Positions 3,596-18,089 of a DNA stretch of 64,000 nucleotides are shown here, piece by piece. The position numbers and the translations under genes were made by a program. The notes beneath the pieces were generated by a model. That model was not told where the DNA came from, did no database searches, and saw only the letters and a list, made by a program, of their open reading frames with translations. Source of the DNA: Comamonadaceae bacterium PBBC1 (lineage in GTDB: Bacteria > Pseudomonadota > Gammaproteobacteria > Burkholderiales > Burkholderiaceae_C); contig NKIP01000004.1 in the NCBI GenBank assembly GCA_002256145.1, positions 124,001-188,000 on the forward strand, written 5' to 3'. Each line of letters opens with the position of its first letter. Position 1 is the first letter of the stretch.

Positions 3596-3874
3596 ATGCA
3601 AGCCCTCGTGTCAACGCCAACGGTCAAGGTCATCGGTGCAAATGGACAAATCTCTCTCGGCAAACAATATGCGGGTCGCCAAGTTTTGGTCGAGGAACAA
3701 GAATCGGGCGTGTGGCTGATACGCACAGCAACAGTCATTCCTGACAACGAGCGCTGGCTGCATGAGACACAGGCGGCCTCGGACCTTGCTCAGGCTCTGG
3801 CATGGTCGGCAAAACACCCCGCATCCGACTCGCAAACCAATAGCCTTCTAGCCACGGCAACCCAGGGCAAGTAA
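3596..3874 (+). CDS. Putative antitoxin (AbrB/SpoVT-like or related beta-strand DNA-binding fold)
   Basis: VKVIGANGQISLGKQYAGRQVLVEEQESGVWLIRTATVIPDNERWL; 5-bp spacing to the next ORF. Confidence 0.55.
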   Translation: MQALVSTPTVKVIGANGQISLGKQYAGRQVLVEEQESGVWLIRTATVIPDNERWLHETQAASDLAQALAWSAKHPASDSQTNSLLATATQGK

Positions 3875-3878
3875 GCCA

Positions 3879-4199
3879 ATGGGCTCCAACGACAACCCGA
3901 TTCGTCTTGATTTAAACAACCCGTTTTTTCAGGAACAGCTGTTTGCCCTGCAAAAGCCAGAGCGCAACGCTGCCATTGACACACTGCGAAAAATTCATCT
4001 TGTGAGTTGGGGACAACTCTACCGAGACAACGGTTTGAAATGGGAAAAAATCGTCAGCGTCAAACCACCGCAGGGCATTGATGCCATCTATTCATTAAGA
4101 ATCACACAGTCCCGGCGCTGCACCGCACATCGCGATGGGGAATTCCTGCGTTTCTTAACAGTGGCCCCAGACCACGACAGCACCTATGGGCGGAAATAG
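3879..4199 (+). CDS. Putative toxin partner (RelE-like size and composition)
   Basis: 106-aa basic ORF immediately downstream of the antitoxin-like ORF; IDAIYSLRITQSRRCTAHRDGEFLRFLTVAPDHDSTYG pattern. Confidence 0.5.
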   Translation: MGSNDNPIRLDLNNPFFQEQLFALQKPERNAAIDTLRKIHLVSWGQLYRDNGLKWEKIVSVKPPQGIDAIYSLRITQSRRCTAHRDGEFLRFLTVAPDHDSTYGRK

Positions 4200-4673
4200 T
4201 CATCCCGCTGACCGATCCCACACCCGCCACTGACTTGCATCCATGTGCTTTTGGCACCGGTGTTTGAGCAGCCGCAAAAAATTGTCCGAGTTTTCAAAAT
4301 CACCCGTCACACAGCCTGAAGAAAACTGGTGGCAGTTGTCCATGATCACGTTGTAGTCACGCCACTGCCCCACCTGCGCCAGAGCACGCTGGGCAATGTG
4401 GCGCCCGCCCTGCGGCTCGGGGCTTTCATGGCACGACACATAAATGCTGACGGCTGGATTGAAGCCTCCGAGTTGGGCCAAAAACCCACGGGCACTGACT
4501 TGCTCGATCTCGCCATCCCCGCTCAGGTGAACGATCTCACCATCGCCCACATCAATGCCACTGTGCTCGTCCTAGCCCAAAGCCAGATCGCAATACACCA
4601 CGCAACCAGGTTCAGGCTCGACTTTGTCGAGCAGGAAGTTGTCGATCAGCGATTCGGCAATTCCGTTCAGCAA
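4200..4673 (-). pseudogene. LRAT-like (permuted papain-fold) domain gene, 5'-truncated with in-frame amber stop
   Basis: Minus frame reads LLNGIAESLIDNFLLDKVEPEPGCVVYCDLALG*DEHSGIDVGDGEIVHL...IMDNCHQFSSGCV; TAG at 4572-4574 is in frame with ORF 4200..4550. Colinear with the N-terminus of the 16443..18089 protein. Confidence 0.75.
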
Positions 4674-4689: not shown

Positions 4690-5187
4690 TTAGCTGAGGT
4701 TTTCACACTCAAAAGTATTTGAAGAAATATTTTTTACCACCCTTTCAAAATCAAGCGATTCATTAATCAAATTACAAATTACATCCAGGAAAAGCGTTTG
4801 ATCCAAAAATCGCATTTGAGCAATATGCTTAATAGAATAAACATTTACATCTTCAACTTCTTCAATAAACCAAAATCCAAATAGTTGTTCTGAGTTTCGT
4901 TTCAACAATAATGTTGACACGTTGTCTGGTAATTTTTCATCCTTCTTAAATTCCTGACTGCTTTGAACCAAAAATTGAACAATTTCACCGCCATTTCCCA
5001 CAATCACTACAACACTACTGCCAGAATTTATTGCAAATCCTAACAAACAAATATCTTCATCATTTTTTAAAAATCTCCAATCACTCACATCGCAAAAACG
5101 TAGCCAAGACTCAAAATCATTTCCAGAACAAAATTTTTCCATTTTATTCTTGAAAATTTCTTCAGAAAACAAAATATCTAAACTCAT
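4690..5187 (-). CDS. Hypothetical protein, AT-rich gene
   Basis: 165-aa ORF with intact start and stop; strong local AT bias. Confidence 0.6.
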   Translation of the reverse strand: MSLDILFSEEIFKNKMEKFCSGNDFESWLRFCDVSDWRFLKNDEDICLLGFAINSGSSVVVIVGNGGEIVQFLVQSSQEFKKDEKLPDNVSTLLLKRNSEQLFGFWFIEEVEDVNVYSIKHIAQMRFLDQTLFLDVICNLINESLDFERVVKNISSNTFECENLS

Positions 5188-5201
5188 AAAATTCTCCTAA
5201 A

Positions 5202-5663
5202 TTATTTTTTAATTTTTCTTATTTTTTCATCTCCACAATCTTTACACTCATATATCATATGATGTTCAGTTTCAGAAATTTTCTCGATTCTAGGAATTAC
5301 TGGATAATCATGGGAGGTTCCATCTTCATAACTTGAATCGCATCTTACGCAACGTTTCACGACTTCGCATTGACTATTTTTTCTCAAATAAACTCCATCT
5401 AAATGAACTTCCGTAGAAGTGGTTTCATCACAATGAACGCATTTAAATATTTTCACACAGCTTTTTTCAGCATGATATTCAACCTCTTTTGGAAATTTAT
5501 GATTATCCTTTTCCATAAATTCTTTACAATCCGGGCATTCCTTTTCGAAGTGACACAAAGGCTTGCCTTTTACATTTTCATATTCTCCCGCATGAAAACC
5601 AACGGCACATTTAGCCTGCTTTGCATAGCCGATTACCGAATCAAAAAAACCCATTTTAATCAC
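5202..5663 (-). CDS. Multi-CxxC zinc-ribbon-like hypothetical protein
   Basis: CPDC, CVHC, CVRC and CKDC pairs across 153 aa; 14 bp upstream of the 4690..5187 gene. Confidence 0.65.
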   Translation of the reverse strand: MIKMGFFDSVIGYAKQAKCAVGFHAGEYENVKGKPLCHFEKECPDCKEFMEKDNHKFPKEVEYHAEKSCVKIFKCVHCDETTSTEVHLDGVYLRKNSQCEVVKRCVRCDSSYEDGTSHDYPVIPRIEKISETEHHMIYECKDCGDEKIRKIKK

Positions 5664-5828: not shown

Positions 5829-6095
5829 CTACAAGCTGAGACAAATTTTCAAATTTATTTGAAAAAAATCATTCCAAGAAATTTTATGGGATAAATTTTT
5901 ATCATAATAAGCCTCCACCCGACAAACCAATGGCCTAGTATCGTAAATAGTGCAACTGTTTTTAGTTTCATCGAAATGCTTGCAGATGGAATCTCCACGA
6001 TCCAACCAAACGGTTTGCGGACTGTTAGCAACCTTACGGCAGCACTTGCCACATCCGTTGCAAGGAAAGGGGGATTTAACTTGTACGCGTATCAT
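5829..6095 (-). CDS. YkgJ-like CxxCxxCC metal-cluster protein
   Basis: FPCNGCGKCCRKV...DSICKHFDETKNSCTIYDTRPLVCRVE is the YkgJ/UPF0153-type pattern; start overlaps the stop of the upstream GTPase gene (ATGA-type, 6092-6095). Confidence 0.8.
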   Translation of the reverse strand: MIRVQVKSPFPCNGCGKCCRKVANSPQTVWLDRGDSICKHFDETKNSCTIYDTRPLVCRVEAYYDKNLSHKISWNDFFQINLKICLSL

Positions 6096-7738
6096 GCATT
6101 CAATGCGACTTGTTGGATTTCGAGCAATCTCTCAAGACGCTGACTATTTTCACGCTCGTTGCTATTGAACGCTTGCCTCAATGAGTCCACTTGAGCAACT
6201 ACATTTGCAAAGAATTTCTCAAGCTCGATTTGAACAATGTCACGCATTGATGTTTCAAAACCTCCTGATATTTCTTGTGCGAAATCTTCCATTTGCTGTA
6301 GCGCACGTTCCTTCGCTCTTTGCTGCTCTTCGGTTTGTTGGCGCAACTTCTTTTCTTCCGAGTCCCCTGCAAAAATATCGAATAGGATGCTTGCTGCGCT
6401 AATGGCTGTTCCCACATAGGGAATCCATTTGGTTAAGGCAGTAGCTGCCCACTTTTCCATCGTTTTTGTACCAATCCCTTTCATCAGAGAAGGTAAGGTA
6501 CTTTTGATCAACTCCAATGAACCAACAATGTGTTCTGGTTTTGCAAATGTAGAGATCTGTTGGATGGCCCCTTTGAGCAACGCCGGGTTTATTCCAGATG
6601 CAACGACCGATCCTTCAATTTGAGAATTGGGAGTTGCAATTTCCAGCATGGGCGTCGTCACGGCTAAACCTGTGTGCTCAATTTTTGGTAACGTCGCTTG
6701 TAACTCCTCAATGTCACCTTGAACACTGTTGACAAAGATTTGCAGCTTGTCATTCAGGTTTGTGGCAACCTCTTTGCCTGCGGCTTCGATCAATTTTTGA
6801 ATTTGAACCTGGCAGCTATCAGGGCTTGAGCGCATAAAGGCTTTGCTTCTCTCATAGATACTGCTCTTATGCCTCAATAAATCACGTTCCATATCTTGGC
6901 GCAGCTTAGTCTTTTCGACCCCAAGATCACGAATCAGCTTGTCATAGTTCTTGACAACCTCAGACTTCGAACGGTCATTGAGGATCGTCGCGTACTCTCT
7001 CAAAAAATCGATCAATTGGTTTTTCAAGCGACCATAGATATCATCTGGTGAAATGCTTTGTAGAAACTGCCGCAACTGCTGCTCGAATGCGGGATAACCA
7101 CTTAGTTCGACCAATTTAGGCTGATTTTTGAGTCGCCCTTGCAGTGCACGCTTTGCATTGATTCTGACTATCGGAATATTCTTGAGTACATCACTCAATC
7201 CACGGTCGGCTCCCATTTGTTGCAAGCGCTCACGGGTTTGATCCTTAAGCTTGATGAAGTCCTCATCGTTGATGATTTTTTTCTCATTCAAGACCAAGAA
7301 CACTTGTTTACCGGCCTGCTGCAGTTCCATCAGCACTGACAGGGTCTTGGCCTCTTCGGCTGTACCGACTGGATCGACTACAAAGATAACCGCATCTGCC
7401 TGTAGCAACTGTGCCCTAGTGACGTTTTCGTGCTCAATGGGGGCATCAATACCAGGTGTATCGAGAATACTGAATTGGCCCCATTTATAAGCACAAACCT
7501 TGTCTGTCAGAGGAACGTCATCCGTCGCTGCCTCTTCACGTCCAAGCAATGTATTAATCAAGGTACTCTTGCCTGCGTTATAAACGCCATAGACCATGAT
7601 TACAGCATCGGCATTGGTTTTCTTGTGTTCGAATACTTCCACGACAGGGCGAAAACGCGCTGCAATAGAGCTGTCTTCGCTTGAAAATGCACGGGCCGAC
7701 TCATAAGCAGACAATAATTGGGTTGAATTAATTTTCAT
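6092..7738 (-). CDS. Dynamin-like / large GTPase with C-terminal hydrophobic segment
   Basis: P-loop VYGVYNAGKSTLINTLLG, DTPG (ILDTPGID), NEKK region, C-terminal WIPYVGTAISAASILFDIFAG; start chosen at MKINSTQ (7738). Confidence 0.85.
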   Translation of the reverse strand: MKINSTQLLSAYESARAFSSEDSSIAARFRPVVEVFEHKKTNADAVIMVYGVYNAGKSTLINTLLGREEAATDDVPLTDKVCAYKWGQFSILDTPGIDAPIEHENVTRAQLLQADAVIFVVDPVGTAEEAKTLSVLMELQQAGKQVFLVLNEKKIINDEDFIKLKDQTRERLQQMGADRGLSDVLKNIPIVRINAKRALQGRLKNQPKLVELSGYPAFEQQLRQFLQSISPDDIYGRLKNQLIDFLREYATILNDRSKSEVVKNYDKLIRDLGVEKTKLRQDMERDLLRHKSSIYERSKAFMRSSPDSCQVQIQKLIEAAGKEVATNLNDKLQIFVNSVQGDIEELQATLPKIEHTGLAVTTPMLEIATPNSQIEGSVVASGINPALLKGAIQQISTFAKPEHIVGSLELIKSTLPSLMKGIGTKTMEKWAATALTKWIPYVGTAISAASILFDIFAGDSEEKKLRQQTEEQQRAKERALQQMEDFAQEISGGFETSMRDIVQIELEKFFANVVAQVDSLRQAFNSNERENSQRLERLLEIQQVALNA

Positions 7739-8492
7739 TTTTCCCTCATGCATGTTCAGTGCTACGCAGCATTTGAAGTAACTGGCTTTCGAAATCTGTA
7801 ATTTCTTTCCGAAGCTTGCTAAGCAATCGCTCGACATCCTGGTCCATGGATGCCCACAGAGAATCAGCCGACTTACGCATGTGTTCCTCGAACATCTTCT
7901 CGCTGCTGCGTATCGCTTGCTGACGGATTTCTTGAAGGTTATCGCCAACCGTGATGCTGATGCTACGGTAATTGGCATCTGCACTTCGCCCAGTTGCGCC
8001 GCCCAGCCCACCCCCAACACTTGCACCCAGAGCCGCCCCAACTGGCCCGCCAACAACAGCGCCTATTGCGCCACCAATCAGCGTGCCCAACAATCCGTTG
8101 CGTTTTTTTGTCCCAGCGCGCACGATCGGAATCTGCTCCTCAATTTGTTCAAGCTTGAACTCTGGTAACTTGACAAAATCACTGCTGCTATAGGCGTTTT
8201 TGACCGTATTTTGGAACCCGACCATGATGTCTTCGAATATCTGGCCCAAATTTTTCTCGGCCACCCCCTTGTATTTCTCAGTGAGTGAGGTTTGGAAAGC
8301 GATCAATTGCGTTTCAATCTGCGATTCGTTGTCACGCTGAGATGAAAGTCCATCAAAAAAATCATCAATGTAGACACTCAGTTCTGACTGACCGCTGCGG
8401 ATGTAAGTGCTGAGTTTTTTGTAGGATTGACTTTTCAAGTCTTCCAATGGCTGCTTGAACCCGGAAACAAGATCGCTATAGGGCTTGATTCC

Positions 8493-8502
8493 GTCCTGAC
8501 AG
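8493..8502. repeat. Target-site duplication GTCCTGACAG (left copy)
   Basis: Exact 10-bp match to 9905-9914, abutting IS ends. Confidence 0.95.
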
Positions 8503-9904
8503 CAATCCACCGAACTTAAGCTATAATAATTCACGCAACTCATTGATTTAATTGAAGTTTTTCTTATTTTCTCTCGCCGCAACATGACAACCACCATGGT
8601 AAGAAAATATAGGGTTAACCCTTGGGTTATCGCCTCTTGATGACCTGACCTCTGTCTTTGCCCAGCTGGGTCAGTTCATACACAGCCCCGCCTTTGCAGA
8701 TTTGGCCCGAGGTACCCAGTCCACCGCCTTTGTTCGCCAACGCAAACTGCCCCTGCCTTGTCTCGTGGGCGCTTTGCTCAGCCAACGCTCTCAATCTCAG
8801 CAGCTGATGCTGGACTCGTTTTTCGCCAGCTTGGCCGGTCACCCAGGCCTGCAGCGCGGCGCCTCTGATCGCGCCTTTGCCAAAGCACGCAACAAACTCA
8901 AGCCCGAAGCCCTGACCGCTTTGAATGCTCAATTGCTGGACCTGACTCAGGCCAGAGGCTGGATGCCGCTTTGGCATGGCCTGCGTGTGGTGGCCGCAGA
9001 CGCCTCTGTGTTCATGCCCGCCACCCGTGCGTGCCACCAAACGCGCCTTGCAGCCCAGCCCGATCTGCGCTTGTTTGGCCTGTATCTGCCCGGCCCTGAG
9101 CTGTGTCTGCATGCCCAACTCTATGGCCCCGAGACGGGCGAGCGTCAGATGCTTTTTGAGAACTTGCACCACCTGCAAGCCCATGATGTGCTGGTGCTTG
9201 ACCGGGGTTATCCGGCTGCTTGGTTGATTGCCCTGTTGCAGCAACAAAGCATCCGCTTTTGCATGCGCTGCGACAGTGACAGTGGCTTCAAGGCGGTGCG
9301 CGCATTCTTGCGCAGCGGTGCCAGCGAGGCGATGGTCACCCTGAACATGCCCAGCACTGAAGATGCCAAGGATTACGAGTTCATTCGCCAAGCCCCGCGC
9401 GTGCGCCTGGTGCGTTGTGTCAGCTCCAACGGCAAGGTGCGCGTGCTGCTCACAAACTTGGATGCACAAGCGTTTCCTGCTGAGGTTTTTGGGCAGCTGT
9501 ACCACCAACGCTGGCGCATCGAAGAAGCCTTCAAACGCCTCAAGCACCGCCTGAAAATCGAAAGCGTCAGTGGCTTGAGCCAGCAAGCCTGTGTCGTTGA
9601 CATCGCCGCCAAAGTGTTGGCCGACAACCTGGGCGCTTTGCTCAGTCACTGTGCCCGTGGCATGCAAGAGCGCACGGATCGTGTCTGCAACCGCAGCTAC
9701 GCGGCCAGCCTGATGCAACGCATGCTGCCCCGTTTGCTGTTGCTGCCGGGTGCCCTTGCGACGTGCATCGCCAAGAGCATCGAACTGCTCAAGGGCAATC
9801 TGGTGCGACGGGTTGATGGTCGATCTCGGCCACGACCTGCGAGCAAAAACAAACCGCATCCGCATTTGGCTTACAAGGGGTAGTGGCTTAAGTTCGGTGG
9901 ATTG
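8503..9904 (+). mobile_element. IS4-family insertion sequence, 1402 bp
   Basis: 19-bp perfect terminal inverted repeats CAATCCACCGAACTTAAGC (8503-8521 / 9886-9904) and a 10-bp TSD. Confidence 0.95.
8702..9883 (+). CDS. IS4-family transposase (start codon uncertain)
   Basis: Y(2)R(3)E(6)K signature YHQRWRIEEAFKRLK; DAS motif; reading frame continues upstream as LDDLTSVFAQLGQFIHSPAFADLARGTQ without a clear ATG. Confidence 0.9.
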   Translation: MARGTQSTAFVRQRKLPLPCLVGALLSQRSQSQQLMLDSFFASLAGHPGLQRGASDRAFAKARNKLKPEALTALNAQLLDLTQARGWMPLWHGLRVVAADASVFMPATRACHQTRLAAQPDLRLFGLYLPGPELCLHAQLYGPETGERQMLFENLHHLQAHDVLVLDRGYPAAWLIALLQQQSIRFCMRCDSDSGFKAVRAFLRSGASEAMVTLNMPSTEDAKDYEFIRQAPRVRLVRCVSSNGKVRVLLTNLDAQAFPAEVFGQLYHQRWRIEEAFKRLKHRLKIESVSGLSQQACVVDIAAKVLADNLGALLSHCARGMQERTDRVCNRSYAASLMQRMLPRLLLLPGALATCIAKSIELLKGNLVRRVDGRSRPRPASKNKPHPHLAYKG

Positions 9905-9914
9905 GTCCTGACAG
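9905..9914. repeat. Target-site duplication GTCCTGACAG (right copy)
   Basis: Exact match to 8493-8502. Confidence 0.95.
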
Positions 9915-11004
9915 CTCTGCAGAAAGGTGCGCATGTTTGCAAGTGGTGTTTGTTGCTTAATGCGAACGCCCTCTGACTGTGCAATGCGATGCAAGGTTTC
10001 GCACAATTGCCCCATACCACTTTCTGAGAAAGCAGCGAAATCATCAGCATTCAGCTGTGCATAGCGCGCAGAGAAAGAGACGATCTCGATTTTCCCGATG
10101 TCATCGGCACCGTAACTCTTTTCAAGTGCCTCCCGCACGTAGGTCTGCTGCTTTTCGCGGCGCGGCTTGTCCTTCATTACGACGGTCTGCACCAAACATT
10201 CAGCTTCATCGTCATAGTCTTCATTGATATCGTCACTGCCCGTCAACAACAGCAAGACCTTCTTTTCCTTACCGAGAAGTTGCTTAATTTCAGCAAGATC
10301 GCTTTCACGACCCGGCGAATCTGACTTCATCGTGTAAAGGATCAAATCGGCGTGCTCTACATAGTCGCGTGCTAATTTTTCGTTCTCAACTTTGAGCGAG
10401 TGCAGCCCCGGCGAATCAACCCAAGTCAAGCCTGGCAATCTGAAACCCTGGATAGAACTGGTCGCCTCAGTGGCACCAACACGGAACTCGCGACGCCGCT
10501 GCGCTTCATTCTCCATATCGCCACTGTCCACCCCTGTGTTTTCGTGCGAGAAGTAATTTGGTGTTAAGCGTGAAGCGACCTGTCGCTTCAACTCGTCAGT
10601 GGGATCTGTGTGCCCCCAAGCCATGTAGTTGCCAAGCGAGCTTTTTCCCGACTTGACTTTTCCGTTGATAAAGACAAGCAATGAGTCCTCAAAACCTTTT
10701 CGGAATTTGACGCCCTTCTCTCGTCCTGCAACCTTTATATCCCACTCTGATTTTGTTTTTTCCATGACCTCAATGAAGCCAAGCACCTGCGGCTTCAACG
10801 GATTGCTGTCTGGAAGGTTTTTCCGAGAGTCCATTAGATGGTTTGAAAGACGCTGCATGAATTTCTGACGCAGTGCCTCGAAATCCAATTCCTGACCCTT
10901 GGCTATAGCCAGGGAATTGTCAAACTGGGTCTGCAGTAACTCAAAGGACTCCAGCAGCTGCTGACGACTCACATGTTTGTCCATTTTCTCTTTCATTTAA
11001 TTCG

Positions 11005-11556
11005 TTATACGGAAAGTTCTCTCTTGATCCTAGAAATTTCTACCTTGAGTAAGTCGATCAACTGGAGTTCTGATTCAACAACCTTAAATTCCTTTTCCGC
11101 ATTGACCAGCTTGTCACATTTTTTTAGCTTAATGCTGTAGCTTTCGGTATAAATTTTCAAATTTTTCCTTATTTCTTCAAACAAGTCGTTTTTCACCGAA
11201 AACCTAGGCAAAAAATCGGTAACATTTTGCGCAGAGGGATTTGGGCTCTCATTATTTTCACTTTCAGAAGTCAATTTTATTAAAAAGGCTGGCGATTTTT
11301 CAAAATCAACTTCAATCCAATTCTTCAGCGACTTAGAGAGATCCACGCCAATGCTCTCGCCACGAATGAGAAAATTTTCATTTTCAGTTTCGAGCCTTTT
11401 TTGACGATCAATTTGTGCACGCTCATGCACTGCACGACGACGCGAAGCACTTTCATAATCATAGCTATCGTCGTCATCATCATCTTCGCTAAGTTTTTTA
11501 ACCAATGCTGTAACGCCAGCAATAGCCAAACCGCCAATCAACCAAGGTAATGCCAT
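11005..11556 (-). CDS. Single-pass membrane protein with acidic (poly-Asp) stretch
   Basis: MALPWLIGGLAIAGVTALVKKLSEDDDDDDSYDYES; in tight operon context. Confidence 0.7.
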   Translation of the reverse strand: MALPWLIGGLAIAGVTALVKKLSEDDDDDDSYDYESASRRRAVHERAQIDRQKRLETENENFLIRGESIGVDLSKSLKNWIEVDFEKSPAFLIKLTSESENNESPNPSAQNVTDFLPRFSVKNDLFEEIRKNLKIYTESYSIKLKKCDKLVNAEKEFKVVESELQLIDLLKVEISRIKRELSV

Positions 11557-11577
11557 TTTATTTCTCCTGTTAAATTT

Positions 11578-12405
11578 TTAGATACTGCGATATTTAGATG
11601 TACTTTCATCAACGAACTCACTTAAGGTAGTAATCTGTTCATTGAAAATAGCGAAGGCTTGTCGGATTCCTTCTTGAATGCTCTGTCTTCTAGCACCAAG
11701 AGATTGCTCCTTTAATTCAAGTACTCGTAAAAGAACTTCAGCCTCTGTTAGGCTTCTTTGTGCGCGGACTTTTCCAGTATTGGACACAACAACGTTAAGG
11801 TGCTCAATCAAAGCGTTAATGTGGCTTTGGGCAATCAATCCATCCTTTTGCTTGAGAATACCAGTTTGGTAACGCTTGTTTGAAACTTGAAAAACCTTGG
11901 GTGTAAAGCCTAATTCATAAGCACACTGGGCCTTTATCCTATCTTCAATCAAATTGATCTTAGATGGCTCCTCTTTCTCTATTTTGCTGAGAACCAAAAT
12001 AATGTTACTCTCTGCATACTTACCAAAAGATTGCGTGAGCTTTTTCAGAAATTTGACCTCGCTCGCCTCCAATTCACCTTGTGGTTGATGCAGAAAAAGC
12101 ACAATGTCTGCCTGTGATGCACCGAACTCGGCTTGGGCATCATCCGCTTCGTTGGCATCCAATCCGGGAGTATCCAGATATATAATTTTTTCGGTTTCAA
12201 ACTTTTTGACATCAGCTGTTTCTCGGATGTCATTGGTTTTAAAAAACTCCTCTTCGATATGCTGTGTCAGCATGTTTAAAAGGAAACTTTTACCGGCATT
12301 CATCAGTCCATAAGCTACTATGGTCGTGCGAGGGTCCATATTTTGGTTTGAAAGAGTTTTTAATTTTTCTTGAATAGTTTTGGTTGACATCGTTTGAGAT
12401 TTCAT
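11578..12405 (-). CDS. Small dynamin-type GTPase
   Basis: P-loop AYGLMNAGKSFLLNML, IIYLDTPGLDANEADD, helical C-terminus. Confidence 0.85.
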   Translation of the reverse strand: MKSQTMSTKTIQEKLKTLSNQNMDPRTTIVAYGLMNAGKSFLLNMLTQHIEEEFFKTNDIRETADVKKFETEKIIYLDTPGLDANEADDAQAEFGASQADIVLFLHQPQGELEASEVKFLKKLTQSFGKYAESNIILVLSKIEKEEPSKINLIEDRIKAQCAYELGFTPKVFQVSNKRYQTGILKQKDGLIAQSHINALIEHLNVVVSNTGKVRAQRSLTEAEVLLRVLELKEQSLGARRQSIQEGIRQAFAIFNEQITTLSEFVDESTSKYRSI

Positions 12406-12460
12406 GTTTATCCTTATCGGTTGGTAGATTTATTAGTGACGTTTCGATGGATTCTTCGCT

Positions 12461-12646
12461 TCATTTGTTTTTGAACATATTGAGCATTGACTCGGCCCAT
12501 CCGAGCTTTTTCTCCTTTAACGCCCCACCACACCGCCCACACACACTCGGCGGCATCAACAACATCGCGTCGCTCTGGTTATGCGTGTCGGTGCTCCAGC
12601 CGCATTTCGGACAGGTACTTTTGATGGTGCTGGGGGCGATGGGCAT
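12461..12646 (-). CDS. 61-aa double-CxxC zinc-ribbon protein
   Basis: MPIAPSTIKSTCPKCGWSTDTHNQSDAMLLMPPSVCGRCGGALKEKKLGW; start at internal ATG 12646. Confidence 0.7.
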   Translation of the reverse strand: MPIAPSTIKSTCPKCGWSTDTHNQSDAMLLMPPSVCGRCGGALKEKKLGWAESMLNMFKNK

Positions 12647-12672
12647 GGGGTCTTCGGTCGGTTGTGTTGCGT

Positions 12673-13581
12673 TCAAACCGCGCCCACATAAGCGCGCAGT
12701 TCGTTTTCCATCTCTTGCTGCAGCCCTTCGGGGCTGATGATGCGCACATGGGGCAGCCAGTAGCGCACGATGGGCAGGATCTGGTTGGGGTGGGCCACTT
12801 GGCCGCTGACGATGAGGCCGCCATCTTCGAGTTGTTTTTCGATGACTTGTGCGCCGATGAGTTTGCGGCGCTGAAAGTAGCCTGCTGCTTCTTTGGCCAC
12901 TTTGATGACGACTTCGCTTTTTTGGGTGTTGAGCCAGATGCTGTCTTCGTCTTGCAGGGTTTGCAGCACGTCGGCATCGGGCACAAAGTGCTCGCCCTGC
13001 GCCAGCAGGCGGCTGATCTTGCCAAAGGCAAACGCTTTGAGCCGCGTGTCGTGCACAGCGGCCAAGTACCAAATACCGCCGTGGTTGACCAGTTTGTAGG
13101 GTTGCACGGGTTCGTACAGCTTGGGCGCTTGGGTTTGGCCACCCAGGGTTTTGGTGTATTCAAAGCCGATGGTTTGGTGCGCCAGGATGGCTTGCTCCAG
13201 GGTTTTGAACAGGGGCTCTTTGCCACTGTGGTCTTCAAACTGGTGACCTTTGACAAGCCAGGCGCTGTCCACACGGCTGTCGAGCAGGTCTTTGAGAAAG
13301 TCGGTGCTGAGCGCCGGAAACAGGTCTTGCACCCCGGCCAGGCAGGCAAAGCGTTCGAGGTCTTTGAGGCTGAGCTTGCCCAGGTAACGGGCTTCGAGGT
13401 GGTAGTGGCCTTCGGTTTTTTGCAGGGGCAAGAAAGCCAGGCGTTCGTTCAGGTCGCGCTGCACAGTGCGCTCGGTCACGCCAAACTGTTTGGCAAGTGC
13501 AGAGGGGTTGAGCTTGTCGCCTTGGTTGAGCTGGCACAGGATGCCGGTGAGCCGGTAGGCCAGCTTGTCGTGTTCTTTCAT
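12673..13581 (-). CDS. HTH + WYL-domain transcriptional regulator
   Basis: N-terminal HTH (NPSALAKQFGVTERTVQRDLNERLAFL) and WYL-like YKLVNHGGIWYLAAVHD. Confidence 0.88.
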   Translation of the reverse strand: MKEHDKLAYRLTGILCQLNQGDKLNPSALAKQFGVTERTVQRDLNERLAFLPLQKTEGHYHLEARYLGKLSLKDLERFACLAGVQDLFPALSTDFLKDLLDSRVDSAWLVKGHQFEDHSGKEPLFKTLEQAILAHQTIGFEYTKTLGGQTQAPKLYEPVQPYKLVNHGGIWYLAAVHDTRLKAFAFGKISRLLAQGEHFVPDADVLQTLQDEDSIWLNTQKSEVVIKVAKEAAGYFQRRKLIGAQVIEKQLEDGGLIVSGQVAHPNQILPIVRYWLPHVRIISPEGLQQEMENELRAYVGAV

Positions 13582-14216: not shown

Positions 14217-16430
14217 ATGAAAACCAAGATACAAACACTGCTCACCCAACTCAACCAAGGTCTGGTCTCCCGTGAACAGGTTCTGAAAATGGGCTTGCTG
14301 ACCCTGCTCAGCGGCGAAAACCTGGTGCTGGTGGGGCCGCCCGGCACCGGCAAAAGCCTGGTGGCGCGGCGCATTGCAAAGAGTCTGGCCGACGACGCCG
14401 CGCAAGCGAGCAAGGCCGATTACTTTGAATACCTGCTGACCAAGTTTTCCACCCCCGAAGAGATTTTTGGCCCCCTGTCCATCAGCGCACTCAAGGCCGA
14501 CCAATTCAAGCGCAACACCGAGGGTTACCTGCCCACCGTGCGCATGGCGTTTCTGGACGAAATTTTCAAAGCAAGCTCCTCCATCCTGAACGCGCTGCTG
14601 ACCATCCTCAATGAACGCGTGTATCACAATGGCGCGCAAGCCCAAAAGGTGCCGCTGCAAGCGCTGATTGCCGCCTCCAACGAACTGCCCAACGACCAAG
14701 AAGAACTCAGCGCCCTGTACGACCGCTTTCTGGTGCGCGTGTTTGTGGACTATGTGGGCCTGAGCCAGCTGCCCCAGCTGTTTGAGCCCACCACCGAACC
14801 TGAGCTGGCCCCCGCAGACCTGCTGAGCGTGCAAGACCTGGCTCAGATCCAGTACAACGCAGACCACGTGCACATTGCGCCCGAACTGATCGCCGCTGTG
14901 CAAGACATTTGGGCGGCACACCAAGAAGCCTTCAAAGAAGACCGACGCGAAAGCCTGTCAGACCGACGCCTGAAAAAAACCATCCACTTGCTGCGGGTAT
15001 CAGCCGCCACCAATGGCCGCGAAGCGGTGGACTTGTCGGACCTGCTGCTGCTCAAAGACTGCCTGTGGAACCACCCCGACAACGCCGAAAAAGTGCGCGA
15101 ACTCCTCATGCGCACCCTGCAAAACCAGAGCCGCCAAGTGCTGCTCAGCGGTGAAGGCATGGTGGCCACGGCGGCGTTGTCTGCGTTGGCGAGCAGTTCA
15201 TCCACGCACGCCAGTACCAAGCAGAAACCCGGCAAACCGGGTGCCGTGGTCAATGGCTACAAAGGCAGCGGCACCGCAGACGACCCGCTGCTGATCGAAT
15301 CCGCCGAAGACTTTACAGACCTTGCCCGCCCCGAAGTGGGCCAACAGGGCTACCACTTCCGCCAAACCGCCGACCTGGACATCAGCCACATCAGCACCTG
15401 GCCGGAGATTGTGTTCAAGGGGCACTATGACGGGGGGAATTTCAATATTCAGATGACACATGTCGCAAAAGATACAGGGTCAAGTACTTTAAATAAATTT
15501 TTCGACAGATTCGGAAGTTTTGAAGAATTGAAATTTCGACTCTTTGCTAAACTGATGCAAAGTAATGTGAGTCAAATGCGAATGCAAGGTTGCGGGTTGA
15601 CAGAAATTGCCGAAAACAAATGTGTGATAACACATTGCACGACAACTTCATCGCTCGTCAGCAACGCCCGCAACTCCGAATTGGTTTCCTGTGAGGCTGA
15701 TGGGTATTTAATTGCAGAAAATGCGACAAAATGCACTTTCTCTTCTTGTTTTGCAAAAGAGTCAATCGCAGACAGCCTGAAATCCTGTCAAATTAAACGC
15801 TGTGAATCACATGCTCCGTTAGTCAACAGTGAAGCTCAAAATAGTCAAATAGAAGACTGCTTGGTGTTACTCGACTCTTATCACGTAGCTAGCAATGAAT
15901 CTCAAGGAGGGGTTGCGGCAACATGCGAAAAAAGCGATTTGAGCCGCTGCTTTGTGGCAGGGGAAATTAATGGAAACGGTAATTTTTCAGGAATTATTCA
16001 TAATGCAGAATCAAGTACGATTAACCATTGTGCTTTGGGCAAAATAACAGGCGAATACAAATTATCGAGTCGTATTGCGCATGAATTCGATTCAGATTGC
16101 AAACACAGTAAAAATATCTCTATTGACAGCGTTAATTCATTTACACACTCAACAAAGTCAAACAAGACAAGAGCGTGGCCAATGCAATCATTCGGTCAAG
16201 ACAGTGGAATTGACGGTGACTCCATCGCCTCCGCCACTTTCAAACAACGCTATTTCGAACACACCCTCGGTTGGGATTTCGACACTGTTTGGGAGTGGGA
16301 CAAAAAACAAAACCGCCCAGCCCTGCGCCAAGTCGGCGTCCAAGCCGCCACCGCAGCCCCCAACAAGCCAGCCGACCCCAACACGGTGGACCTGCTGACC
16401 CAGCAAGTTCAGGCCAACATCTGGTTGTGA
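14217..16430 (+). CDS. MoxR-family AAA+ ATPase with C-terminal GLUG/beta-helix-like domain
   Basis: Walker A GPPGTGKS, Walker B AFLDEIFKASSSILNALLTILNER, sensor-1 ASNELP; C-terminal GSGTADDPLLIESAEDFTDLA...FKGHYDGGNFNIQM... and LGWDFDTVWEWDKKQNRPALR resemble GLUG-repeat proteins. Confidence 0.85.
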   Translation: MKTKIQTLLTQLNQGLVSREQVLKMGLLTLLSGENLVLVGPPGTGKSLVARRIAKSLADDAAQASKADYFEYLLTKFSTPEEIFGPLSISALKADQFKRNTEGYLPTVRMAFLDEIFKASSSILNALLTILNERVYHNGAQAQKVPLQALIAASNELPNDQEELSALYDRFLVRVFVDYVGLSQLPQLFEPTTEPELAPADLLSVQDLAQIQYNADHVHIAPELIAAVQDIWAAHQEAFKEDRRESLSDRRLKKTIHLLRVSAATNGREAVDLSDLLLLKDCLWNHPDNAEKVRELLMRTLQNQSRQVLLSGEGMVATAALSALASSSSTHASTKQKPGKPGAVVNGYKGSGTADDPLLIESAEDFTDLARPEVGQQGYHFRQTADLDISHISTWPEIVFKGHYDGGNFNIQMTHVAKDTGSSTLNKFFDRFGSFEELKFRLFAKLMQSNVSQMRMQGCGLTEIAENKCVITHCTTTSSLVSNARNSELVSCEADGYLIAENATKCTFSSCFAKESIADSLKSCQIKRCESHAPLVNSEAQNSQIEDCLVLLDSYHVASNESQGGVAATCEKSDLSRCFVAGEINGNGNFSGIIHNAESSTINHCALGKITGEYKLSSRIAHEFDSDCKHSKNISIDSVNSFTHSTKSNKTRAWPMQSFGQDSGIDGDSIASATFKQRYFEHTLGWDFDTVWEWDKKQNRPALRQVGVQAATAAPNKPADPNTVDLLTQQVQANIWL

Positions 16431-16442
16431 GCGGGGGCACGC

Positions 16443-18089
16443 ATGATGTCCTTGCTGAGCAAGTTACCGGCCTTGAACGTATTGGCCGCGATGGCTTTCA
16501 AGCCGATCAAGTATTTCATCGACAGCACAGTTCGCGACAAAGTGCTGCCCGTGCCGGGCAGTGTGCTGTATTGCGATTTGTGGCTTGGGGCCGAGCATTC
16601 GGGCATCCATGTGGCGCAGGGGCAGATTTCCAACATCGTGGTGGACGGTGTGGCTCAGAGTTCGGTGAGCCTGAGCGATGCGCGGGACTTCACCTCCAAA
16701 AGCACCCTGGGTCGCCAGATTTATGTGTCGTGCAACAGCGATGGCGCGGTGGGCCATAACGCCGTGGCACAGCATGCTGCTAGCCAGCTGGGGGAGCGGG
16801 CTTTTTACGGTTTGGTGATCAAAAACTGCCACGAGTTTTCAAAAAATTGCGTGAATGTGCTGACGCATGATGCCGATGTGTCTTTGCTCGACAGCGTGAT
16901 GGATTGGGTCGGCCCCAACGAGACGTGGGAGCTGACCCTGGGCATGCTGAAAGCCACAGCCCGCCAAAAGCTGGGGGCCACCAAGTGGCGGCTGTGGAAT
17001 TGGGAGCAAGACCAGTCGGGCCAGCAAGCCAAGTCTGCACCGCCACCCGTGCCGGACTGGGACGCGATCCAATCGGTCTGTGAGCACATGCCGCTGATCC
17101 CCGAGAACATGCAGCAGCTGCGCCAACAGTTGCGCCAAGCGCAGGCTTACGAAGAAGAAGTGGCCGACGAAAACCTGCCCGAGCCCATTCGCCAGCGTTT
17201 GCAGGCTTACCGCCAGACGCTGACTGCAGTGGACGCCACCTATGAGAAGGCCAAGGATTTTTTGGCCGCCTGCCCCGGCGCGGCGTTTTCACACGCTGAT
17301 TTGCAGCACAGCCAAGAAGACTTTTCGGCCCTGGCCCGTGAGTTGGCAGACAACGCCCACATCCTCGATTTGGTGCAAAAAATGGGGCGGCAGCACATCT
17401 CGGAGGAAGTCAAACGGCGCAGCCGCATTCCACAAGCCAGCCGCAGCGAGGTGCATGGCACCCACCGCAGCGACGATGTGATGCGCATGCTGCCCAGCGA
17501 GTTGCTCAATCTGGAAGACGACACGCTGGAGACTTTGTTTTATGCGCGCTTGCTGGAAAAAAGCCTGCAAACCTACGAGCTGAGCGGCAGCACATGGGCA
17601 CAGGGCGAAACCTCAGAGGCCAAGCAGCTGCGCACCGGCCCGGTGGTGGCGTGTCTGGACACCTCGGCCAGCATGCAGGGTGAGCCAATGCGCAAGGCCA
17701 AAGCCTTGTTGCTGGCGATTGCGGGCATTCTGAAAAAAGAAGACCGGTCTTTGCATGTGGTGTTGTTTGGCGCAAGTGGCGAGATTCGCACCTTCGACAT
17801 GGATGCCCACAACGATTCGGCCGGTCTGCTGGCCTTTTTGCAGCAAGGCTTCGGCGGCGGCACCGACTTTGAAACGCCGCTGCAACACGCGCTGGACACC
17901 ATCGACGCGCAGCCCAGCTACCTCAAAGCCGATGTGCTGATGGTGTCGGACGGCGACTGCGCCTTGTCAGACGCCTTCACGGCGCGGCTGCAAGCCGAAA
18001 AGCAAAGGCTGGAGTGCCGGGTGTACTCGGTTCTGTGCGCAGGCAGGCGGGTGGCAGACACCTTCAGCGATGAGGTGGTGGTGTTGTAG
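16443..18089 (+). CDS. LRAT-like N-terminal domain fused to C-terminal VWA domain
   Basis: N-terminal PGSVLYCDLWLGAEHSGIHV...YGLVIKNCHEFSKNCV (H...NCxxF arrangement); C-terminal VVACLDTSASMQGEPMRKAKALLLAIAG MIDAS motif and MVSDGDCAL. Confidence 0.8.
   Translation: MMSLLSKLPALNVLAAMAFKPIKYFIDSTVRDKVLPVPGSVLYCDLWLGAEHSGIHVAQGQISNIVVDGVAQSSVSLSDARDFTSKSTLGRQIYVSCNSDGAVGHNAVAQHAASQLGERAFYGLVIKNCHEFSKNCVNVLTHDADVSLLDSVMDWVGPNETWELTLGMLKATARQKLGATKWRLWNWEQDQSGQQAKSAPPPVPDWDAIQSVCEHMPLIPENMQQLRQQLRQAQAYEEEVADENLPEPIRQRLQAYRQTLTAVDATYEKAKDFLAACPGAAFSHADLQHSQEDFSALARELADNAHILDLVQKMGRQHISEEVKRRSRIPQASRSEVHGTHRSDDVMRMLPSELLNLEDDTLETLFYARLLEKSLQTYELSGSTWAQGETSEAKQLRTGPVVACLDTSASMQGEPMRKAKALLLAIAGILKKEDRSLHVVLFGASGEIRTFDMDAHNDSAGLLAFLQQGFGGGTDFETPLQHALDTIDAQPSYLKADVLMVSDGDCALSDAFTARLQAEKQRLECRVYSVLCAGRRVADTFSDEVVVL

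Follow-up and report, generated by a model that had tools for sequence, protein, structure and literature searches.

A mobile, rare and conserved operon is carried by the window analysed here, a 64,000-nucleotide stretch of Comamonadaceae bacterium PBBC1 (contig NKIP01000004.1, positions 124,001 to 188,000). The operon occupies positions 5829-13581 and centers on a cassette that encodes two dynamin-like GTPases, referred to as LeoBC-type and LeoA-type, together with a dedicated GTPase that lacks a stalk and a single-pass membrane protein; genes for a YkgJ-like protein, a zinc ribbon and a WYL-domain regulator are optional additions. By sequence, the dynamin pair appears to be a divergent relative, or distant sister, of the LeoBC and LeoA pair of Eleos, and we consider it an even proposition that the cassette is an expanded Eleos-type dynamin membrane-remodelling system, probably directed against phages or other invaders.

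A cassette with a fixed core order

The operon consists of seven genes, all on the minus strand, with positions, lengths and gaps exactly as given in the initial annotation of this DNA. First is a 302-amino-acid (aa) transcriptional regulator of HTH-WYL-WCX architecture (12673..13581; Pfam WYL, WCX and HTH_DeoR), followed after 26 bp by a 61-aa zinc-ribbon protein with a CxxC..CxxC pattern (12461..12646), and after a further 55 bp by the stalk-less small GTPase of 275 aa (11578..12405; MMR_HSR1), which is proposed to be a nucleotide switch. A gap of 21 bp separates this gene from that of the acidic single-pass membrane protein, the proposed anchor (11005..11556, N-terminus MALPWLIGG), and 8 bp lie between the anchor gene and the 5' part of the LeoBC-type gene, which encodes the GTPase domain (9917..10996). 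The 3' part of the LeoBC-type gene, encoding the stalk and a glycine-rich paddle (7746..8492), is followed after 7 bp by the gene for the 548-aa LeoA-type protein (6092..7738), which overlaps by 4 bp (ATGA) the last gene, encoding an 88-aa YkgJ-like CxxCxxCC protein and putative metal or Fe-S maturation or control factor (5829..6095). A Pfam scan of the operon supports WYL with WCX, MMR_HSR1/Dynamin_N and CxxCxxCC, with only a sub-cut-off match for the zinc ribbon.

The LeoBC-type gene is interrupted by an IS4-like insertion sequence (IS) of 1,402 bp (8503..9904), whose transposase (PF01609, DDE_Tnp_1) is encoded on the plus strand at 8702-9883. Because the 19-bp inverted repeats at its ends (CAATCCACCGAACTTAAGC, at 8503 and 9904) and the 10-bp target duplication that flanks it (GTCCTGACAG, 8493-8502 and 9905-9914) are both perfect, the insertion looks recent. 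The 5' and 3' pieces are 60% and 36% identical, respectively, to the matching parts of an intact 612-aa homologue in G285, a genome of a second Comamonadaceae genus, and both align to it up to about the duplication, so the gene remains complete or nearly complete in its two pieces. The gene is most likely inactive in this strain, and it was analysed throughout as two separate pieces, never as a joined protein. A natural gene split of the LeoC/LeoB kind was rejected, as the IS accounts for the interruption.

Lack of conservation elsewhere, named in the initial annotation as grounds for giving up the proposal of a single system, was looked for, and the opposite was found. The order small GTPase, short single-pass protein, LeoBC-type and LeoA-type dynamin-like GTPase is kept in the window, in G285, and in Klebsiella, Photobacterium, Pseudomonas and Campylobacter, and the additional GTPase and anchor are conserved in six loci. 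In G285 the whole set is intact, in the order WYL, SHOCT-domain protein, small GTPase, anchor, LeoBC-type, LeoA-type, YkgJ and zinc ribbon, with the SHOCT-domain protein occupying the place of the zinc ribbon; identities to the window proteins are 47% for the small GTPase, 26% for the anchor and 34% for the WYL regulator, which sits at the same place. The same core was found in Klebsiella, Raoultella and Citrobacter plasmids by a plasmid search, on a plasmid of Photobacterium toruni (L011), and, when 85,000 species genomes were searched with an alignment, in Pseudomonas akapageensis (L015) and, together with a YkgJ gene, in a Campylobacter genome (L016); a scan of the 85,000 genomes with a single sequence had found nothing. 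A Conchiformibius locus truncated by the contig end (L014) retains an anchor-like open reading frame (ORF), the dynamin, the LeoA-type gene, YkgJ and the zinc ribbon, and an Acetobacter plasmid carries the bare dynamin pair only. Neighboring genes within the cassettes are mostly separated by -14 to +29 bp, and two gaps are close to 100 bp. Most of the loci L018-L093 were set aside, sharing the GTPase domain only.

The genes also appear to travel together. Separate searches of 72,556 plasmids with the small GTPase and with the dynamin gave identical sets of records, and all plasmids with the small GTPase (36/36) also carry the dynamin, although many Klebsiella copies are near-identical and the independent lineages number about 8; the 37th match of the small-GTPase search is due to cross-matching with the LeoA-type gene on the Acetobacter plasmid. 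Pairwise distances of the LeoBC-type and LeoA-type proteins correlate (r=0.88, eight loci, 0/5000 permutations), as do those of the small GTPase and the LeoA-type protein (r=0.92, six loci, 15/720 permutations). When 300 other genomes of the family were queried with the LeoA-type protein, one matched (G285, 54% identity), and about 400 sampled genomes from the order yielded no additional carriers. This very patchy distribution, with a single carrier in 300 and copies on conjugative plasmids, is of the mobile accessory type. Complete E. coli genomes contained nothing closely matching the Klebsiella cassette, and the zinc ribbon had no match among the plasmids searched. YkgJ genes recur in four loci and zinc-ribbon genes in three; the WYL gene is present in only two cassette loci and so seems to be an optional regulator rather than a defining leader.

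In a Lachnospiraceae variant (L017:251-3479) the LeoA-type gene precedes the small GTPase and the third gene differs. In the Pseudomonas locus, the cassette is directly preceded by two extra GTPase genes (L015:206-2598), of which one matches DUF697 and the other is septin-like, placing five GTPase genes close together.

Identities of the GTPases and their partners

The small GTPase, LeoBC-type and LeoA-type proteins form three separate clades in phylogenetic trees. When added alone, canonical Eleos LeoA, from a Pseudanabaena plasmid, joins the LeoA-type clade (support 95/93), and canonical LeoBC joins the LeoBC-type clade (support 84/82); with both canonical sequences in one tree they join each other, a placement flagged as a long-branch risk. 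The P-loops divide the two dynamin types in the same way (G.YN[AS]GKS versus GK..[AS]GKS). The small GTPase of the window groups with its cassette counterparts and has an intact P-loop and DTPG motif, and its match to the PADLOC LeoA profile falls mainly across the GTPase region.

The AlphaFold model of the LeoA-type protein (predicted local distance difference test score, pLDDT, 71.6) contains a GTPase domain and long trunk helices, with a weakly modelled hydrophobic tip at residues 353-458, and its best matches in the PDB are all bacterial dynamins, namely IniA, BDLP1 and Cj-DLP1/2. Similarly, the best PDB matches of the LeoBC-type relative from Conchiformibius are BDLP1, IniA, Cj-DLP and LeoA. 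As modelled, both dynamin-like proteins would possess the features that define the dynamin superfamily, which are a GTPase domain, a helical neck or trunk and a hydrophobic tip.

The window anchor has a single hydrophobic stretch (residues 1-19) and a net charge of -6; five other loci have a counterpart flanked by the same pair of genes, and in several loci the N-terminal hydrophobic stretch is followed by a run rich in Asp and Ser. The YkgJ-like protein matches PF03692 with a score of 29.3 bits (cut-off 23) and has cysteines that are conserved across the subfamily, and three other cassettes have a 47-64% identical counterpart after their LeoA-type gene. A homologue of the zinc ribbon directly follows YkgJ in Conchiformibius, and a weaker one lies after YkgJ in G285 (L009:9040-9255). 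In a comparison with the solved BrxR/CapW-type regulators of defense operons, the WYL regulator has the HTH-WYL-WCX domains, and with phmmer it matched no solved chain at E<=0.01.

The YkgJ subfamily and an N-terminal signature

At E<=1e-14, the YkgJ subfamily is rare, being found in 2/398 other genomes of the order and 3/398 of the phylum. The subfamily also closes an operon with no GTPase genes, in the order WYL, TerB, a 350-aa membrane protein, a membrane protein of 520-570 aa, and YkgJ. This operon (L110:3818-8276, L111:5149-8267, L113:4817-8273, L114:5206-8276, L115:5322-8279 and L128:436-2496) is complete in Vibrio and partial elsewhere, and the membrane proteins of the Vibrio version (L110) match the PADLOC phage-defence candidates PDC-M09A and PDC-M40B. 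Another arrangement consists of TerB, YkgJ and a 326-aa membrane protein.

Common to both kinds of operon is a membrane protein that begins M-[AP]-[LIV]-P followed by hydrophobic residues, present in 14/14 strict YkgJ loci that could be checked (the window, read by eye, and L009, L016, L110-L117 and L126-L128). The signature was first noticed in part of these loci, and L116, L126, L127 and L128, checked afterwards, all agree; these four represent one or two protein families and so are not independent inventions. The signature is absent from the three cassettes that have an anchor but no YkgJ (0/3) and from 1,144 background genes (0/1,144), and the locus of a distant YkgJ (L125, 83 bits) is likewise without it. 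Removal of the initial Met is the usual outcome when Ala or Pro occupies position 2, and for that reason an exposed N-terminus is a plausible target. A tentative possibility is that M-[AP]-[LIV]-P membrane anchors have in the YkgJ subfamily their own maturation or control factor, and that it is common to two membrane conflict systems not otherwise related, the dynamin cassette with its three GTPases and the WYL/TerB operon. The metal-binding YkgJ protein would act on the exposed Ala or Pro N-terminus of the anchor and thereby license the system, a form of control for which the papers searched give no precedent in bacterial defense.

Possible functions and relation to known systems

Eleos protects against phages, and several cassettes lie among genes of similar purpose. 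Type III CRISPR-Cas genes are found beside dynamin pairs in two unrelated lineages, Photobacterium (L011) and G738 (L108:174-7184), the neighbors in the latter being Cas6, NE0113 and RAMP. The Klebsiella cassettes adjoin a TrlF-type ATPase, with a restriction-modification pair on another plasmid, and an AlbA_2 protein is encoded near the Campylobacter cassette. The neighbor of the window operon is a divergent pair of genes, one for a MoxR AAA+ protein of the MoxR-vWA (von Willebrand factor A) ternary type (14217..16430, plus strand; PF20030 bpMoxR, E=1.1e-57) and one for a vWA protein (16443..18089, plus strand; VWA_2) whose N-terminal part has a weak LRAT match. The MoxR-vWA type is a predicted conflict system (PMC7159879).

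On the other flank of the operon from the vWA gene lies a second short LRAT-like ORF (4200-4550, minus strand). Two ORFs of 165 and 153 aa occupy an AT-rich stretch adjoining the operon (4690-5663, minus strand), with no Pfam, NCBIfam or PADLOC match. The toxin-antitoxin debris that had been read into this flank was not borne out, as 3596-4199 gives no Pfam or NCBIfam match.

If the cassette is a defense system, the single-pass protein would recruit both the small GTPase and the two dynamins to the inner membrane or hold them there, and the small GTPase would act as a nucleotide switch that licenses hetero-oligomer assembly of the pair. This licensing step may be likened to the assembly-stimulated GTPase activity and tethering of the Campylobacter jejuni pair, in which GTP hydrolysis and tethering depend on the pairing of the two different dynamins (PMC6104087). 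The trigger would be a membrane disturbed by an invader, through entry of phage or plasmid DNA or through lysis, and the dynamin pair would tether, seal or deform that membrane, limiting spread of the invader, by analogy with DynA, which can delay phage lysis (PMC8844932). YkgJ, via its cysteine cluster, might prepare or control the anchor, and the WYL regulator and zinc ribbon might tune expression or assembly.

A number of observations weigh against a role in phage defense. In PADLOC the window LeoA-type protein scores 132 bits versus 393 for Pseudanabaena LeoA, and the intact LeoBC-type relatives score ~65 bits (44-90) versus 366 for Pseudanabaena LeoBC; the model of the LeoBC-type relative from Conchiformibius is of low confidence (pLDDT 60.7). 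No recognised defense gene lies in the vicinity of the G285 cassette, no copy of the cassette occurs in the phage records searched, and viral contigs yield weak GTPase-domain matches only, with no dynamin relative. A phage or stress assay on this gene set was not found in the open literature searched. Finally, close relatives of the small GTPase and dynamin reside inside benzoate/catechol operons, where defense is unlikely. Of the membrane-remodelling or defense system that the initial annotation had proposed, the conserved, membrane-acting multi-GTPase system is borne out by gene order, co-inheritance, fold and spread, whereas the argument for defense is one of genomic association and distant homology to Eleos only.

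The catabolic relatives lead to a different explanation, that of a general membrane-stress or repair machine not directed at phages. In this view, an inner membrane exposed to chemical or envelope damage would be resealed or protected by the dynamin pair, and the small GTPase would again be the switch. Pairs of a small GTPase (~420 aa) and a dynamin are found within cat/ben operons of Acinetobacter, Diaphorobacter, Caballeronia and G549 (L099:7310-10179, L100:7304-10152, L101:7277-10143 and L109:8012-10878), and both gene trees place them as the sister group of the Pseudomonas cassette (support 100/99 to 100/100). Two such GTPase genes had been noticed in ben-cat regulons, with their function unexplained (PMC6449761), and membrane repair has been speculated for C. 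jejuni DLP1/2 (PMC6104087). However, the catabolic version has no LeoA-type partner and no anchor and so may be a derived use, and the four-gene cassettes adjoin CRISPR, restriction and conflict genes, reside on conjugative plasmids and are very patchy in their spread; we regard the explanation as less likely than not, though a serious rival. A fusion of small GTPase and anchor in the catabolic pair was rejected, as the extension has no consistent hydrophobic stretch.

Homology of the dynamin pair to that of LeoABC in enterotoxigenic Escherichia coli (ETEC) raises the possibility of a vesicle or secretion aid that promotes release of outer-membrane vesicles, since strains without leoA or leoB release only about half the usual amount of vesicles (PMC4159319). 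This is improbable, as LeoABC has no extra GTPase or anchor, secretion genes are absent beside the cassettes inspected, and the vesicles could themselves be a by-product. The IS-broken and perhaps inactive copy in the window might suggest that the GTPase genes are unrelated and lie together by chance, or that the operon is a functionless relic, but this reading is already contradicted by a gene order conserved across phyla, by P-loops conserved from Campylobacter to Comamonadaceae and by co-inheritance, and is scarcely credible.

Bacterial dynamin pairs are common, and how they are switched on and held at the membrane is the question that this cassette addresses. By tying the pair to a dedicated small GTPase and an anchor, in an operon of fixed order whose range extends from Campylobacter to Klebsiella plasmids, the cassette makes such a switch testable both genetically and biochemically. 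If the cassette does act in phage defense, Eleos would grow from two to four or more parts, and the benzoate/catechol relatives offer a handle on whether one machine serves both invader defense and chemical membrane stress. The link to the anchor provides a concrete candidate partner for the small cysteine-cluster YkgJ protein.

The initial annotation had considered the system undescribed, which holds for some of its parts: the dynamin pair belongs beside the known Eleos and LeoABC, and the third GTPase, anchor, YkgJ and zinc ribbon are in no library or paper searched. Within PADLOC 2.0, Pfam, NCBIfam and open papers, with subscription literature and preprints outside this scope, neither the third GTPase with its anchor, nor the YkgJ and zinc-ribbon parts, nor the catabolic offshoot is a named system. 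The predicted DO-GTPase/GAP1 conflict operons (PMC7159879) likewise combine paralogous GTPases, zinc ribbons and membrane parts, but their GTPases are not dynamins and the GAP1 partner is not seen in the window operon; assignment to this group was rejected, as no GAP1 family is among the Pfam or NCBIfam matches of the operon proteins. Bacillus DynA (PMC8844932) is also a membrane dynamin and slows phage-induced lysis, but its two dynamin units are fused in one protein and no comparable operon partners are described. C. jejuni DLP1/DLP2 (PMC6104087; PDB 5owv/5oxf) form a heterotypic dynamin pair within one operon and are among the best sequence and fold matches of the cassette dynamins, with an HcpA-like beta-lactamase in the operon instead of the GTPase, anchor and YkgJ. 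LeoABC of ETEC (PMC4159319; PDB 4aur) also has paired dynamins, and the C-terminal part of LeoA matches the LeoA-type profile; unlike the cassette, it is located in a pathogenicity island and has no separate stalk-less GTPase, and its LeoC and LeoB are one dynamin split by its own architecture, whereas the split in the window is due to the IS.

The closest relative is Eleos, listed as a dynamin-like defense system (PMC11811056). In every cassette with both genes, the dynamin-like genes are adjacent, with LeoBC-type before LeoA-type, as in Eleos, and the window LeoA-type protein matches the PADLOC LeoA profile (E=8.7e-39), in agreement with clade and P-loop. PADLOC scores of the cassette proteins are ~3-6x below those of canonical members, and to the two genes of Eleos the cassette adds a conserved third GTPase and single-pass protein, and often YkgJ, zinc ribbon and WYL genes, which two-gene Eleos is without. 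Because its dynamin pair is a divergent relative of that of Eleos, the cassette as a whole is not an entirely new kind of system.

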